From: a virus
Direction: 5' to 3' (one strand)
IMG/VR virus record: IMGVR_UViG_3300049846_001738
Coordinates: 1 to 37,343 of that record
DNA: 37,343 nucleotides
Positions 3,570-35,327 of the stretch are shown here, piece by piece. The translations under genes were made by a program, and so were the position numbers. The notes beneath the pieces are model-generated. The model made no database searches. It saw only the letters and a program-made list of their open reading frames with translations, and was not told the origin of the DNA. The first letter of the stretch is position 1, and each line of letters opens with the position of its first letter.

Positions 3570-6101
3570 ATGGATACGCACCAGGCGCTGATCGAGTTTG
3601 TTCGATCGCTGCCGATCGGCCCTGCCTACGCGCCGATCTACGCCAAGGGCCAGACGTTTGGGAAGCACCAGTCGGTGAGCACCGGCAAGGCCCCTCACGA
3701 GGATTCGCACCACCGGCGGTTCAACCCGGAGGACGTGGCGTTGCTGCTGGAGAAGCGCCCTGAGGTGTTCCCGGCGGTCGGTCTGTTCACCGGCATCCGC
3801 AGCGATGGGATCGTGATCTTGGATGTCGATGCCAACCTCAGCACGCTGTTGCAGAAGTGGGGCGACTCGGTAAGCGCGGCGCCGCAGATTCGCAGCACTA
3901 AGAAGAATGCGGCGAAGTTTGTGTTTCGCGTGCCAGCGGACCAGCGCAGTCTTGTGCGTGGCATGACGCTTAGCCAGGGGCAGTGCGGTTACGAAATCTT
4001 GTGGGGTATGCAGGGCGTAATTGCTGGCGCGTATCCGGGATCGAGTGACGGCAAAGCCAAGCCGGGCGCCTATCAGCTGGTTTCGGGGGACTTCAATGCG
4101 ATTCCCGATGCGCCCGAGTGGTTGCTGGCGGAGATGCGGGCCAGGAAACAGGCCGAGGTGCCGATCCAGCAGGGGCTGGTTAAGAACAGGAGGGGCCTGG
4201 ACTTTTCGGGGAGGACGCAGGACGAGGTAGCGGAGATCGTCCATGACTGCCTACAGGTGCTGCCTCACTTGGGCAGGGGCAGCGAGGACCAGTGGTGGGC
4301 AGTGGGGGCGATGGTGGCCGAGGCCCTGCCGACTGAGTTGGGCTTGGCGCTGTGGGCGGCTTGGAGTGAGCAGGATCCGGCGTTCCAGGACGACTGGGTT
4401 AAGGGGAATCCGTGCGAGGAGAAGTGGCCGCGCCTTGTGGAGCGGGTGGGGAAGCCGGGGAACCTGGGCCTGGGCAGCTTGGTCAAGCTGGCGGACGATT
4501 ACGACCCCGAGAGGTTGCGATTTCAGGACTCAAGCAGGCGCACGCTTGAGGAGGTCGAGGCAACGCAGGCGCAGCAGTACCGCCATGTCGTACTCGACTT
4601 TGCGGAGGTGATTCGCCGCGCTAAGGAGGTGTTGCATATTGATAATCCGGCGGAGCTGAATTACAAGATGCACGCCCTGGCGGTGGAGGCGGGGTATCGG
4701 GATAAGGAGGCGTTGGAGCGTCTGCTTGTAGACCAGATTCAGTACGAGGGGCAGACAGATACCATGTCCATCGCCCAACTTATGGAGCAGGAATTTGAGC
4801 GCAAGTATGTGATACCGGACCTGCTGCCGAGCCCTTCCGTTGTACTAATTTATGGGGCCGGTGGCGATGGTAAGTCGATGTCGGCGTGGACGTTGGCGAA
4901 GCACGTAGCCATGGGGCTGCCGTTCGTCATTCGCGGGAAGCACGTACCAGTCCAGCAGGGGCCTGTGCTGCTGCTCAACGGTGACCAGCCGCTGGTGCAA
5001 CTCCAGGAGCAGCTCCAGGAGGTTGAGATGCCCGCTTACGCCCCGGTGACGATTCGCACCGACTGGTCGCTCCAGCGCTACGCCCAGTTCATAAGCCTTG
5101 TGCAGGAGATAAAGCCAAGTCTAATTGTGATTGATTCGCTTATTGGTTGCAGTGGGGGTAAGGCGTTCGATGAGAATAAGAGTGACTTTGCGACGCCGCT
5201 GTACTGGCTTACGCGTAATAACGGCGTACTTTTTCCAGCAACAACCATCCTAATTATTCATCACGCGAATAAGCAGGGCGGTTTTAGGGGGACTTCGGCA
5301 ATTAGGGATGCGGTGGACGAGGTGTGGGCGCTGAAACGGCCCTCAGAGCGCCAGCAAGAGGCCGTGGGGGTCAATGCGCGCCTCATAGCCATCGAGAAGT
5401 CGCGGAGCGGTCGTGGGGGCACAGGGCTGCTCCTGAAGCTGGAGGACGACCTGACCTTCACCCTCAGCGACTACGTGCCGGAGGTCGATCCAGCGGAGAC
5501 GGGTCCCAGTGCCATCACAGACCGGGTGCTGGCGCGGCTGCGCGTGGTCTACCCGGAAGCGCGTACCAGGGCAGAGCTGAACGCTGATCCGATCGTCGGC
5601 GGCAGGGTCACCGCGATCAGGAAGGCGCTCCAGCGGCTGGAGAAGCGCGGTCTCATCTGTGTCGCGGATAGGTCTAATGGTGAGACGGGGGGTAAGGCGC
5701 TCCACCACTACCGGGCGGTTCTTAGCTCTTCGCGCGTAGAAGTCTGTAGAGAGAGTCCCATTGCCCAAAACCCTTGTGCTGGAACGGAATCTGCAATGGG
5801 ACAGGGGGGTGTAAATGAGGGGGTGTGTCCCATAGCAAGTGAGGAGTTTTCCACAGATAAGGGGGCAGTTGCGGAAAACGTGGGCGAGGTTGTGGAAAAC
5901 GTGGGTGGCGCTGGTACGACAGATGGGACACCGCCGGAAAACGAAGAAGGCTGTCCCATTGCAAAACCGTTGCAGCGCAAGCGAAGTGCTCGAAATGGGA
6001 CAAGTACGGAACCTATACGCGCGAGGCCCGTTGAGTTGGTGGAACGGACTGTCGAGGAGCTGGAGCGGCTGCGGCGCGATGCCGAGGAGCTGTGGAAGTG
6101 A
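3570..6101 (+). CDS. Bifunctional primase-polymerase / replicative helicase
   Basis: 843 residues. Residues about 15-190 look like an archaeo-eukaryotic (Prim-Pol) primase, with catalytic Asp85-Val-Asp87 in VILDVDANL and a basic strand KKNAAKFVFR (111-120). QWWAVGAMVAEAL (241-253) marks a PriCT-type linker. The C-terminal half is a RecA/RepA-like helicase: Walker A GAGGDGKS at 429-436, Walker B PSLIVIDSL at about 516-524 and a sensor ILIIHHANK near 560. A winged-helix-like stretch follows (about 650-700). Residues about 715-800 are low-complexity, and their DNA carries repeats (see candidate origin). The protein would unwind DNA and lay down primers at the phage fork. The start is the ATG at 3570. 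It overlaps the next gene by four bases (GTGA). Confidence 0.85.
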   Translation: MDTHQALIEFVRSLPIGPAYAPIYAKGQTFGKHQSVSTGKAPHEDSHHRRFNPEDVALLLEKRPEVFPAVGLFTGIRSDGIVILDVDANLSTLLQKWGDSVSAAPQIRSTKKNAAKFVFRVPADQRSLVRGMTLSQGQCGYEILWGMQGVIAGAYPGSSDGKAKPGAYQLVSGDFNAIPDAPEWLLAEMRARKQAEVPIQQGLVKNRRGLDFSGRTQDEVAEIVHDCLQVLPHLGRGSEDQWWAVGAMVAEALPTELGLALWAAWSEQDPAFQDDWVKGNPCEEKWPRLVERVGKPGNLGLGSLVKLADDYDPERLRFQDSSRRTLEEVEATQAQQYRHVVLDFAEVIRRAKEVLHIDNPAELNYKMHALAVEAGYRDKEALERLLVDQIQYEGQTDTMSIAQLMEQEFERKYVIPDLLPSPSVVLIYGAGGDGKSMSAWTLAKHVAMGLPFVIRGKHVPVQQGPVLLLNGDQPLVQLQEQLQEVEMPAYAPVTIRTDWSLQRYAQFISLVQEIKPSLIVIDSLIGCSGGKAFDENKSDFATPLYWLTRNNGVLFPATTILIIHHANKQGGFRGTSAIRDAVDEVWALKRPSERQQEAVGVNARLIAIEKSRSGRGGTGLLLKLEDDLTFTLSDYVPEVDPAETGPSAITDRVLARLRVVYPEARTRAELNADPIVGGRVTAIRKALQRLEKRGLICVADRSNGETGGKALHHYRAVLSSSRVEVCRESPIAQNPCAGTESAMGQGGVNEGVCPIASEEFSTDKGAVAENVGEVVENVGGAGTTDGTPPENEEGCPIAKPLQRKRSARNGTSTEPIRARPVELVERTVEELERLRRDAEELWK
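5755..6002. repeat. Candidate replication origin: inverted iterons plus DnaA-like boxes
   Basis: Inside the 3' part of the primase-helicase gene, the core GTCCCAT (reverse ATGGGAC) occurs six times in strictly alternating orientation: forward at 5755-5761, 5827-5833 and 5953-5959, and reverse at 5795-5802, 5923-5930 and 5995-6002. Most copies share the longer form TGTCCCATTGC. Between them lie TTTTCCACA at 5847-5855, its perfect complement TGTGGAAAA at 5891-5899, and a one-mismatch copy TGCGGAAAA at 5870-5878. The repeats fall in more than one codon phase, so protein repetition does not explain them. Iterons plus DnaA boxes inside a replication gene are a classic origin layout; the origin role itself is inference. 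Confidence 0.6.
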
Positions 6102-10230: not shown

Positions 10231-10374
10231 ATGGGGCTCACACCCAGGTGTCCTGTACGGAGTAGCTGCGCACGACATCGGGATATACCCGACGACCGCG
10301 CGGTCAGTTGGGTGAGGAATCTGAACCCCGGCGAGGAGCCTAAGTGTCCGTACTTCATTCCGTTTGAATCATGA
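10231..10374 (+). CDS. Short Cys-containing protein (47 aa)
   Basis: This gene fills an otherwise empty 150-base gap. The ATG at 10231 opens 47 codons, and the stop overlaps the next ATG as ATGA. The peptide has LTPRCPVRSSCARHRD (Cys7, Cys13), then VSWVRNLNPGEEPKCPYFIP (Cys39). The spaced CP and CPYF elements suggest a small metal-binding or disulphide-stabilised fold. The amino-acid pattern is coherent across the full length and the coupling to the next gene is exact, which supports real coding. The function is not known. Confidence 0.62.
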   Translation: MGLTPRCPVRSSCARHRDIPDDRAVSWVRNLNPGEEPKCPYFIPFES

Positions 10375-11099
10375 GCAAACAACCGATGCTTACAAAAAAC
10401 ACCGCACGGCTCAAACAGCGTGTGGCCGAACACGTTGCTGCAGACGCCGTTGTGCAGGGTATTTACTGGGACACTAAAATCTTGCGCGGCTGCTTTATTG
10501 GATGTTTGGCTCATGCTGCCGATCCAACACTTAACGAAGAAGAGTATGGGCTACCCGTTGCTGTGCAACGCATAGCTGAAAATATCTTCGAGGCGCTGCC
10601 GGCAAATGAAGCAAAAGCGTTTCTTGCGGCATTGCCTGCTGCAGTGGAGTGTGATGGCAAAGACCTAAGCAAAGTCCATTGGCAGTTTCTTGCCACTGAA
10701 CTGCGCAGTTTGCCTCCACAAGACATCAAGGTTCAGGAGGTCATTGATCCAGTGATTGCTGGCATGGATCTACTGGCGCAAGGTCTTGACTGGCCAGCTG
10801 ATGCTGCCGCTCGGGCTGATGCTGCTGTTGCTGCTGATGCTGCCGCTCGGGCTGATGCTGCCGCTCGGGCTGATGCTGCTGTTGCTCGGGCTGCTGATGC
10901 TGCCGCTCGGGCTGCTGATGCTGCTGCTCGGGCTGATGCTGCCGCTCGGGCTGCTGATGCTGCTGCTCGGGCTGCTGCTGCTGATTGGGCTGCTGCTGCT
11001 GCCGCTCGGGCTGCTGCGCGACTCAATGCGCGGCTCAGGCAGCGTGATCTGCTGCTGCAGTTGATTAAGGATGCCCCTGTGGTAGGGGGTGCGCGGTGA
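10371..11099 (+). CDS. Protein with Ala-rich repeat tail, unknown
   Basis: 242 residues. Residues about 1-135 form an ordinary domain containing GIYWDTKILRGCFIGCL (about 30-46), YGLPVAVQRIAENIFEAL and FLATELRSL, a pattern I associate with phage proteins of unknown function that end in Ala-rich repeats. Residues about 140-225 are imperfect repeats of ADAAARA units, which would give a long alanine helix with regularly spaced Asp and Arg that could self-pair. The tail ends with the amphipathic helix RLRQRDLLLQLIKDAP. Upstream coupling is ATGA; downstream the stop overlaps a GTG start. Confidence 0.7.
   Translation: MSKQPMLTKNTARLKQRVAEHVAADAVVQGIYWDTKILRGCFIGCLAHAADPTLNEEEYGLPVAVQRIAENIFEALPANEAKAFLAALPAAVECDGKDLSKVHWQFLATELRSLPPQDIKVQEVIDPVIAGMDLLAQGLDWPADAAARADAAVAADAAARADAAARADAAVARAADAAARAADAAARADAAARAADAAARAAAADWAAAAAARAAARLNARLRQRDLLLQLIKDAPVVGGAR
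10797..11020 (+). repeat. Tandem DNA repeat encoding the Ala-rich helix
   Basis: About 220 bases made of near-identical units of GCTGATGCTGCCGCTCGG (18 bases) and shortened or extended variants with GCTGCT insertions. Codon use is almost the same in each copy (GCT/GCC, GAT, CGG), so the repeats are recent slippage or recombination products rather than old, diverged repeats. Long open frames on other frames and on the opposite strand here are artefacts of the repeat. Confidence 0.9.
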
Positions 11100-11965: not shown

Positions 11966-12847
11966 GTGACTGATTCTTTTAAGCAGTACCTAAACGAGAT
12001 TGGGCGCTATCCGTTGCTCACAGCTGAGCAGGAAATTCAGCTGTCGCGTCAGATCAACGCGGCTAAGCCCCTACTCGGTAAAGAGGATCCGACCGTAGAG
12101 GAGAAGCGCATACTTAGGGTTGGGGAGCGTGCCACCCGTAAGCTGATCAACTGCAACTTGCGGCTTGTAGTCACTGTTGCCAAGCAATATACGCGACGAC
12201 TAAATGGCAATGGTATGGAGCTTATGGACCTAGTGCAGGAGGGTGCCCTAGGACTCACGCGAGCCGTTGAATTGTTTGACGGAACCAAAGGCTATAAGTT
12301 TAGCACTTACGCTTATTGGTGGGTTAGGCAGGCGATAACACGCGGCATAGACACTAAAGAGCGGCTTATTCGCGTTCCGCAGCACGGGCTGGATAAGGTG
12401 TATAAGATTGTGCGCTACCAGAAAGAGTATGTGCAGCTGCATGGTAAGTACCCCACCTTAGAGGTGCTTGCGGAAGCGACAGACATTGACGTTGATCACC
12501 TGCAGTTGTTGCTGGCGCGGAATGCGTGGCACCGCAGCCTGGATGAGCTGGTGGCCGACACAGGGAACTCCATTTTGGACATGATTTCGGATGCGGAGGC
12601 GACTGATAGGCAGATCGACTGCATGGAAAGGGACGAAAAGGAAGCGATGTTAGGAATTGCGCTTGACTGTTTGAGTCAGGAAGAACTGCATACCATCAGC
12701 AGACGCTACGGGCTAGAGACAGCAGAACCGATGACGCTATCTAGTATTGCTAAAGAGGATGGTGTATCGAGGGAGTGTGTTCGGCAGCGCGTACAGGTGG
12801 CGCATAATAAAATGCGTCTTAAACTCAGACATGCGAGGTTTGCATGA
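11966..12847 (+). CDS. Sigma-70 family RNA polymerase sigma factor (RpoD/group 2-like)
   Basis: 293 residues from a GTG at 11966. Region 1.2 is SFKQYLNEIGRYPLLTAEQEIQL (4-26). Regions 2.1-2.4 run from about 56 to 128, with NLRLVVTVAKQY, ELMDLVQEGALGL and STYAYWWVRQAITR. Region 3.0 is about 130-142 (RLIRVPQHG). Regions 3-4 follow, with the helix-turn-helix SSIAKEDGVSRECVRQRVQ at about 259-277. Length and motif order match cyanobacterial primary-like sigma factors, so it would bind the host core polymerase and redirect it to phage promoters. In region 4.2 the usual SRERVRQIE reads SRECVRQRV, so -35 recognition may differ. It overlaps the kinase gene as ATGA. Confidence 0.95.
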   Translation: MTDSFKQYLNEIGRYPLLTAEQEIQLSRQINAAKPLLGKEDPTVEEKRILRVGERATRKLINCNLRLVVTVAKQYTRRLNGNGMELMDLVQEGALGLTRAVELFDGTKGYKFSTYAYWWVRQAITRGIDTKERLIRVPQHGLDKVYKIVRYQKEYVQLHGKYPTLEVLAEATDIDVDHLQLLLARNAWHRSLDELVADTGNSILDMISDAEATDRQIDCMERDEKEAMLGIALDCLSQEELHTISRRYGLETAEPMTLSSIAKEDGVSRECVRQRVQVAHNKMRLKLRHARFA

Positions 12848-34098: not shown

Positions 34099-34308
34099 TT
34101 AGTCGGTGGGTTCGGTGTCTATGGGGTCTGTTGTGGCTGGGGTGTCGAAGGGATCTGCTGAGGGTGGCTCGGTGTCTGAGGTGGTGGGGGCTTGGGCGGG
34201 TTCGGTGCGGTCCAGCAGTTCCCACTTACCGGTTTGAGGGTCGAGGAGGTAGCTGCCGCCCTCGGCGGGCAGCGGCGCTGGTACGGGAGAGGGGGCAGCT
34301 TTTGCCAT
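34099..34308 (-). CDS. Small acidic Pro/Thr-rich protein
   Basis: 69 residues from the ATG at 34308 (CACTTATGGC). The first 20 residues are Ala/Pro-rich, then SYLLDPQTGKWELLDRTE forms a small beta unit, and the last 30 residues are Pro/Thr/Asp repeats (DTEPPSADPFDTPATTD). It lies directly after the major tail protein and before the terminator, so it is probably made in high amount as a tail accessory or decoration protein. Family not identified. Confidence 0.62.
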   Translation of the reverse strand: MAKAAPSPVPAPLPAEGGSYLLDPQTGKWELLDRTEPAQAPTTSDTEPPSADPFDTPATTDPIDTEPTD

Positions 34309-34397
34309 AAGTGGTGATGGGGACGGGGACGAAACAAGCACGGCGCCCTCCAAAGGCAGCGCCACTTAGAGGTCGCGCAACTTAGGCGCCACGCAAC

Positions 34398-35327
34398 TTA
34401 GGTGAACACGAGGCTCATTTCGTCGTTGCCGGAGGTTGTGGGAACGGCGATGTAGGGGATGTTGAGCATCTGGATGCCGTCCTGGTCCGCGTAGGAGGGG
34501 TTGGCGATGTCACACTGCAGGGCGTTCAGGGTGACGCGGTTGCCGGCGGTGGTGCCGTGCAGGAAGGTCAGGTTGCCGGTGGTCTCGGTCTGCGCGGTGC
34601 TGAAGTAGTCCTTGGTGGCCAGGGTGGGGGCCTCGATCATCACCGTGCCAGCAGGCTTGCGATCGGTGATGATCACCTCCTTGGTGCAGCCGACCAACTC
34701 GCGGTAGACAGTGCTGTTGGCGATGTCGAAGGTTACGGACTGGAGGCAGCCGGCGTAGGAGAAGAACTGGAACGAGGAGGTGTTGCCCTGCTTGAAGATC
34801 AGGGGGCTGGCCTGGGCGCTGTAGGTGACGGCGGGGGCAGCGGTGTCGGTCGGGGCGTTGTAGACGCCGGTCATCGTGAAGTCGATGGTGGGGATTTCGC
34901 CCACGGCGGCGTTGAGTGTGAACGTTCCACGGCAGCCGGTGGCTTTGTGCAGGATGCCATCGTTGTTGAAGTAGATGGTGGCGCTGGAGAAGGAGGCGCT
35001 GACCGGGGCGTAGGTCACCGAGGTGGTGGCCACGATCGTTTCGCTCATGCCGCAAGCCTGCAGGATCGCACCGAAGCGGGGAGCAGTTCCGGCCGTGCCA
35101 GACCCGGCAAGCTCCACCTGGAAGGTGATGCCAACCCGGCTGTTTGCCAGCAGCTGCGGGCTGTTGCCCAGGTAGGGGCGGATCAGGTCGCGGCTGACGA
35201 GATCGGCCTCGATCGGAGTGATGTCGAGGTTGCGCACCAGCAGCGCGTCGGTGCCGGCCGGTGTGCTGTCAGTACCGTAAGTGGTTTCTTTTTTAACGAG
35301 AATTAGCCGCTTCCTTGTAAGCGCCAT
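34398..35327 (-). CDS. Major tail (tube) protein
   Basis: 309 residues from an ATG at 35327 preceded by a strong site GAGGTAGGA. It starts LILVKKETTYGTDSTPAGTDALLVRNLDITPIEADLVSRDLIRPYLG, the start pattern of a common siphophage tube family, with alternating beta strands, GTFTLNAAVGEIPTIDFTMTG (about 135-155) and a C-terminal strand ending in EMSLVFT. It lies between terminator protein and chaperones, as in lambda-like phages. It polymerises around the tape measure to make the tail tube. Good candidate for the most abundant tail protein. Confidence 0.86.
   Translation of the reverse strand: MALTRKRLILVKKETTYGTDSTPAGTDALLVRNLDITPIEADLVSRDLIRPYLGNSPQLLANSRVGITFQVELAGSGTAGTAPRFGAILQACGMSETIVATTSVTYAPVSASFSSATIYFNNDGILHKATGCRGTFTLNAAVGEIPTIDFTMTGVYNAPTDTAAPAVTYSAQASPLIFKQGNTSSFQFFSYAGCLQSVTFDIANSTVYRELVGCTKEVIITDRKPAGTVMIEAPTLATKDYFSTAQTETTGNLTFLHGTTAGNRVTLNALQCDIANPSYADQDGIQMLNIPYIAVPTTSGNDEMSLVFT

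Follow-up and report, generated by a model that had tools for sequence, protein, structure and literature searches.

To our knowledge, the origins of most uncultured phages are not known, and the question raised by the present locus is whether an origin can lie hidden within a replication gene. The locus belongs to a virus, IMG/VR record IMGVR_UViG_3300049846_001738, which was analysed over its whole 37,343 bases (hereafter the window). Its primase-helicase gene (3570..6101, + strand; 843 aa), which carries Pfam PriCT_2 and AAA_25 as well as PHROG primase/helicase matches, ends in a run of short inverted repeats that a first-pass annotation had taken for a candidate origin served by both a phage initiator and host DnaA.

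A symmetric array of sites selected as DNA

Six copies of GTCCCAT/ATGGGAC are present at 5755-6001 in the 3' end of the gene, in the strict forward-reverse alternation first described: F1 at 5755..5761 (+; AGTCCCATTGC including flank), R1 at 5796..5802 (-; TGTCCCATTGC), F2 at 5827..5833 (+; TGTCCCATAGC), R2 at 5923..5929 (-; TGTCCCATCTG), F3 at 5953..5959 (+; TGTCCCATTGC) and R3 at 5995..6001 (-; TGTCCCATTTC). The longer form TGTCCCATTGC, said to occur in several copies, is exact in two (5793-5803, reverse; 5952-5962, forward) and near-exact in the first, so that 'several' was slightly generous. GTCCCAT is indeed enriched in the window, occurring 13 times against 2.9 expected, a count reached in none of 100 shuffles. 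Paired as F1/R3, R1/F3 and F2/R2, the sites are arranged about a common centre near 5878 (window numbering). This symmetry is limited to the arrangement of the sites, since the arms around 5877 match at 55/150 positions, which is unexceptional at base level (mean 37.9, sd 5.8, maximum 64 elsewhere), and a long perfect palindrome was therefore rejected. Outside the sites lie the arms of a further inverted repeat, I6, each with CGCGCG (5730..5743, +, and 6011..6024, -); flanks of this type were found in 44/76 genomes on the left and 43/76 on the right. Over half of the genomes thus have the element beside the array, compared to ~1% of control 70-mers.

A first scan yielded 80 viral relatives, to which two MAG contigs were added, and in most of these TGTCC/GGACA clusters in the last ~350 bases of the homologous gene, and later scans brought the set to 144 distinct C-termini of homologues. 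The array occupies the same gene position in nearly all of the 144 and is kept down to 46% identity. Arrays hold six to ten alternating sites across the group, typically ordered F-39-R-32-F-x-R-32-F-39-R, and additional tandem copies, R or F, without a partner are frequent. In 20 diverse genomes the spacings were F1-(38 to 40)-R1-(32 to 33)-F2-(16 to 94)-R2-(32 to 33)-F3-(38 to 40)-R3, with small deviations in three. Outside the array, a genome's own motif is found in only 0-2 copies in 6/8 long records. Motif density and presence in relatives, two of the checks by which the first-pass annotation could have been refuted, both came out in its favour.

Could the encoded protein account for these repeats? 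The first-pass annotation held that it could not, and its view was borne out. A repeated peptide, CPI.NPSAGADSA.MGQ, might be the object of selection with the DNA pattern as its by-product, and in several relatives the peptides encoded by F1-R1 and F3-R3 are indeed alike in part. However, inverted copies encode different residues, and they are not confined to one frame. The codon phases in the window are 0,0,0 for the forward copies and 0,1,1 for the reverse ones, and family-wide each of the three phases is used by forward and reverse copies alike. Synonymous recoding with the protein held fixed destroys the motif, leaving a mean of 0.66 copies compared to 5.68 observed, and the observed copies exceeded all 200 synonymous redraws in 71/78 genomes. 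Moreover, the tail that carries the sites is predicted by AlphaFold2 to be disordered (residues 720-825, pLDDT ~27) and is poorly conserved among relatives. Codon phases and recoding together contradict selection at the peptide level, to which we attach practically no credence, and the array is under selection as DNA.

The copies also evolve in concert within each genome. While TGTCC itself is near-invariant, identity at site positions 6-10 is 0.678 between different slots of one genome, against 0.381 when a given slot is taken across genomes and 0.363 for different slots of different genomes. Such concerted change is the pattern expected if a single trans-acting protein reads all the sites.

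A predicted reader within the same protein

The protein encoded by the gene comprises, in order, a primase-like N-terminal part with PriCT_2, an AAA_25 helicase of the RepA/DnaB type, a C-terminal winged helix and the disordered tail. In the AlphaFold2 model, the helicase part has a predicted RecA-like fold of the hexameric-helicase type with a Walker A motif (AAA_25, a conserved GGDGKS, and Foldseek matches to 1nlf, 1g8y and DnaB), resembling DnaB and RSF1010 RepA (RepA TM by target 0.63-0.65). The winged helix, also seen in AlphaFold2 models (5514..5717, +; codons 649-716), is the predicted reader of the array; its nearest folds are winged helices of the Fur/Zur/MarR type, matched with a probability of ~1 but an E of only ~0.01-0.05.

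The Arg684 codon (5619..5621, +) falls in the recognition helix of this domain (680-692, AI-R-KALQRL), and the identity of residue 684 predicts site positions 6-7. Among the discovery set of the first 83 loci, sites read TGTCCCA in genomes with Arg684, TGTCCC plus a following C in those with Lys, and TGTCCA in those with Gln. The overall rule, by which Arg predicts TGTCCCA, Lys TGTCCC(C/T) and Gln/His TGTCCA, describes site spelling across ~130 genomes. On later-fetched sequences it held for 63/64 classifiable arrays (Arg with C6-A7, 35/35; Lys with C6 followed by C or T rather than A, 9/10; Gln/His with A6, 19/19), although the His class and the T7 variant were first met in this hold-out set and so broaden the rule more than they put it to a strict test. 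The exceptions are L027 and L039 (Arg with TGTCCA), L141 (Lys with TGTCCCA), L005 and L072 (TGTCCT), and L006-8, in which the sites are mixed. Pairings of Arg with G and of Gln with A would fit common protein-DNA contacts.

Shared ancestry was addressed with pairs of genomes on a tree built from residues 1-640, that is, with the winged helix left out. Among independent supported pairs differing at site base 7, residue 684 was concordant in 7/7 (two-sided sign test, p 0.0156), and 2/2 independent pairs agreed with it at base 6 (C6/A6). Of 573 variable columns, 684 alone changes from Arg to Lys in 7/7 of the chosen pairs, the next best doing so in 4/7, which counts against mere co-transfer of neighbouring DNA. 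In a plain mutual-information ranking, column 684 came second owing to clade effects, and it was the independent-pair test that settled the ranking.

A distant relative with a diverged recognition helix, L274, keeps the FRFRFR layout but has a different site, GCCACCCT; its GCCACCC/GGGTGGC copies lie in the last 300 bases of the homologous gene, with spacings of 38-21-48-21-38 taken from the printed sequence. Together, selection on the DNA, concerted evolution, the residue-684 code and the layout in L274 make it most likely that the array is an iteron cluster read by the very protein that encodes it, and it is from these patterns that we infer physical binding.

A probable iteron-type origin embedded in its initiator gene

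What, then, would such a self-read array do? Most likely it serves as the replication origin of the virus. More specifically, we think it probable, judging from sequence patterns, that the array is an iteron-type origin located in the stretch of the gene that codes for the initiator's disordered tail, with that protein's winged helix as its reader. The first-pass proposal of an origin within a replication gene is thereby upheld as regards a cis-acting array read by the initiator, for which conservation, concerted evolution and the residue-684 code all speak, whereas origin activity itself we infer. Two customary markers bear on this point. The GC-skew switch that had been looked to as a check was absent from the array both in the window and in seven long relatives, the skew being mostly monotonic. 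Likewise, no AT-rich unwinding element is conserved beside the repeats, AT content being 0.45-0.48 in the array compared to ~0.42-0.45 in the preceding bins of the gene; such an element is usual for iteron origins but not universal.

The absence of both markers would also fit the case in which the protein bound the array to control transcription or termination of the operon, or to titrate itself in the control of replication, while replication started elsewhere, and binding sites within a protein's own gene could well autoregulate it. We regard this as unlikely, though the strongest of the alternatives, since the sites lie at the 3' end of the gene rather than at its promoter and are scarce elsewhere in the genome, and for initiators of the SaPI, SPP1 and lambda kind the origin iterons are located within the initiator's gene or immediately after it. 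The repeats might instead act by folding, forward onto reverse, into a hairpin of RNA or single-strand DNA, as in ssi sites or the stem-loop of pRN1. F1-R1 and F3-R3 do form inverted pairs ~50 bp long with partly palindromic interiors, and pRN1, which likewise couples a primase-helicase to a winged helix, has a stem-loop origin 3' of its gene (PMC4234260); but all copies of a genome change together and not pair by pair, unpaired tandem copies are common, and the residue in the recognition helix tracks the spelling of the site, all of which make folding a distinctly improbable basis for the array. A packaging (pac), recombination or partition site, which can also consist of clustered repeats and sit in a gene, is more improbable still: the array of the window is not at a terminase gene, the ORFs scanned showed no partition genes, and the co-variation is with the replication protein.

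Returning to the origin reading, the putative binding sites fall inside the initiator's own coding frame, as in systems of the lambda O and SPP1 gene 38 kind. The lambda ori lies in the middle of gene O (PMC3985674) and SPP1 oriL within gene 38 (PMC6316719), so that in both, as is proposed here, a protein binds origin repeats that form part of its own coding sequence; however, those initiators are not helicase-primases and their repeats are direct, whereas here they alternate. In the literature covered on SPP1 and lambda, a one-residue code read from a virus family is not described. Among initiator helicases, SaPI Rep and SCCmec Cch2 have a C-terminal DNA-binding domain that reads short iterons on the 3' side of their own gene (PMC7581432). 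Likened by description, they too join a helicase to a C-terminal reader with iterons on the 3' side of the gene, but their iterons come after the gene and their helicases and primases are of other kinds, whereas here the sites are in the gene, alternating and symmetric. According to PMC10612081 (citing Ziegelin 2005 and Mardanov 2006), the single large primase-helicase gene repA of PY54 and N15 suffices as a minimal circular replicon, which would imply an origin within the gene; on that description it resembles the present gene, with its large primase-helicase and probable internal origin. In pRN1, ORF904 comprises a primase, a helicase and a winged helix, with the stem-loop origin 3' of the gene (PMC4234260), and phage BIP-1 has a primase-polymerase, an SF3 helicase and a winged helix; both share the order of functions seen here and an origin on the 3' side of the gene. 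They differ in having an SF3 helicase and a single large stem-loop with no iterons, compared to the RepA/DnaB-type helicase and iteron array here. A single large stem-loop of the pRN1 type 3' of the gene was accordingly rejected for the present locus, where alternating sites inside the gene are found instead. Embedded origins are thus already known; what looks new is the one-residue code, together with an array that is conserved, alternating and symmetric, and our search of the literature collection covered found no paper on coevolution of an initiator's recognition helix with its iterons.

The first-pass annotation had also proposed a part for host DnaA. The boxes it named are all present in the central spacer: TTTTCCACA at 5847..5855 (+), conserved in L002, L003, L064 and L082, its inverted partner TGTGGAAAA at 5891..5899 (-), and a one-mismatch copy at 5870..5878 (-). 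Elsewhere in the window TTTTCCACA-like sites occur only as single one-mismatch copies. As the annotation stated for Synechococcus oriC, TTTTCCACA is the DnaA box of Synechococcus PCC 7942 and of most cyanobacteria (PMC4674748). The clade of the window (five genomes) has GTTTTCCACA-N13-TGTGGAAAAC at the centre of the array. From start to start the two are 23 bp apart in L002, L003, L064 and L082 but 44 in the window, because a 21-bp tandem duplication special to it (5861-5902) has intervened, creating the third box-like site and adding roughly two helical turns to the spacer. The spacer is variable, but the boxes are unchanged at every third codon position. Compared to cyanobacterial oriC, which uses the same box sequence (PMC4674748), there are only two or three boxes here, nested within the array of one phage clade. 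Outside that clade the pair is absent and the array is kept without it, so DnaA boxes were rejected as a general feature of the origin. Of the suggested pairing of phage initiator with host DnaA, the initiator would thus be the protein's own C-terminal winged helix, whereas the DnaA half is supported in the five-genome clade only; DnaA assistance is plausibly an addition made in one clade and not a general part of the mechanism.

We propose that the winged helix (residues 649-716) would bind the alternating TGTCCCAT sites, with residue 684 of the recognition helix helping to read bases 6-7. Once bound, the protein might bring its own helicase, of the RepA/DnaB type, and its primase onto the centre of symmetry. 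Loading would probably proceed in both directions, which the symmetry of the sites would favour, and the loaded helicase and primase would start phage DNA synthesis. In the clade of the window, opening may in addition be assisted by DnaA through the inverted pair of host-type boxes at the centre. Whether the whole amounts to a swappable initiator-origin module, with the origin written in the tail, a residue switch among Arg, Lys, Gln and His that yields mutually non-interfering replicons, and DnaA boxes added in one clade, seems to us an evenly balanced matter. If true, phages co-infecting the same cyanobacteria could carry replicons that do not interfere with one another. Initiator and origin would be a single stretch of DNA, which would explain their staying matched through recombination. 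One sequence rule would also place a probable origin in well over 100 viral contigs and name its predicted reader domain, with a putative one-residue specificity code obtained alongside.

Relatives, probable host and neighbouring genes

The virus group that carries the array is large and mostly unstudied, and its nearest cultured kin are phages of cyanobacteria. A nucleotide search against GenBank phages gave no match to the window, and a protein search for named relatives of the primase-helicase returned S-CBS4 alone, at 29% identity over the helicase; no comparable array was found in S-CBS4 or S-CBS1. In S-LBS1 (L084, MG271909), some twelve copies of a TGCCTAACC/TGCCCAACC repeat, facing either way, lie at 34239-34641, directly 3' of the annotated primase-polymerase gene. 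They are a probable origin of this cultured cyanophage and a probable parallel to the array, and the S-LBS1 genome paper mentions neither repeat nor origin.

The tail-tube protein of the window is 68% identical to that of the Synechococcus phage S-CBS1, 53% to that of S-LBS1 and 45% to that of S-CBS3, and a sigma-70 factor at 11966-12847 has the cyanobacterial RpoD family as its best model, with a score below the model's cut-off. These matches make a picocyanobacterial host likely. A sigma factor is annotated in the S-CBS1 and S-LBS1 records too. Two relatives, L082 and L083, carry the phage gene on contigs binned in MAGs labelled Microbacteriaceae and Sphingobacteriales, which may be mis-binned virus contigs or a sign of other hosts.

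A further replication gene, that of DNA polymerase A, lies downstream on the same strand in 62/116 loci with enough flank, which speaks for the origin reading, as does the RepA/DnaB-like helicase. The replication module of the window is adjoined by an HNH endonuclease gene (2045-2554, -), possibly a homing endonuclease, which is present in 5/116 such relatives. Further along the window, dense low-complexity CAGCAGC/CTGATGC repeats occupy 10797-11060 within the ORF at 10371-11099.
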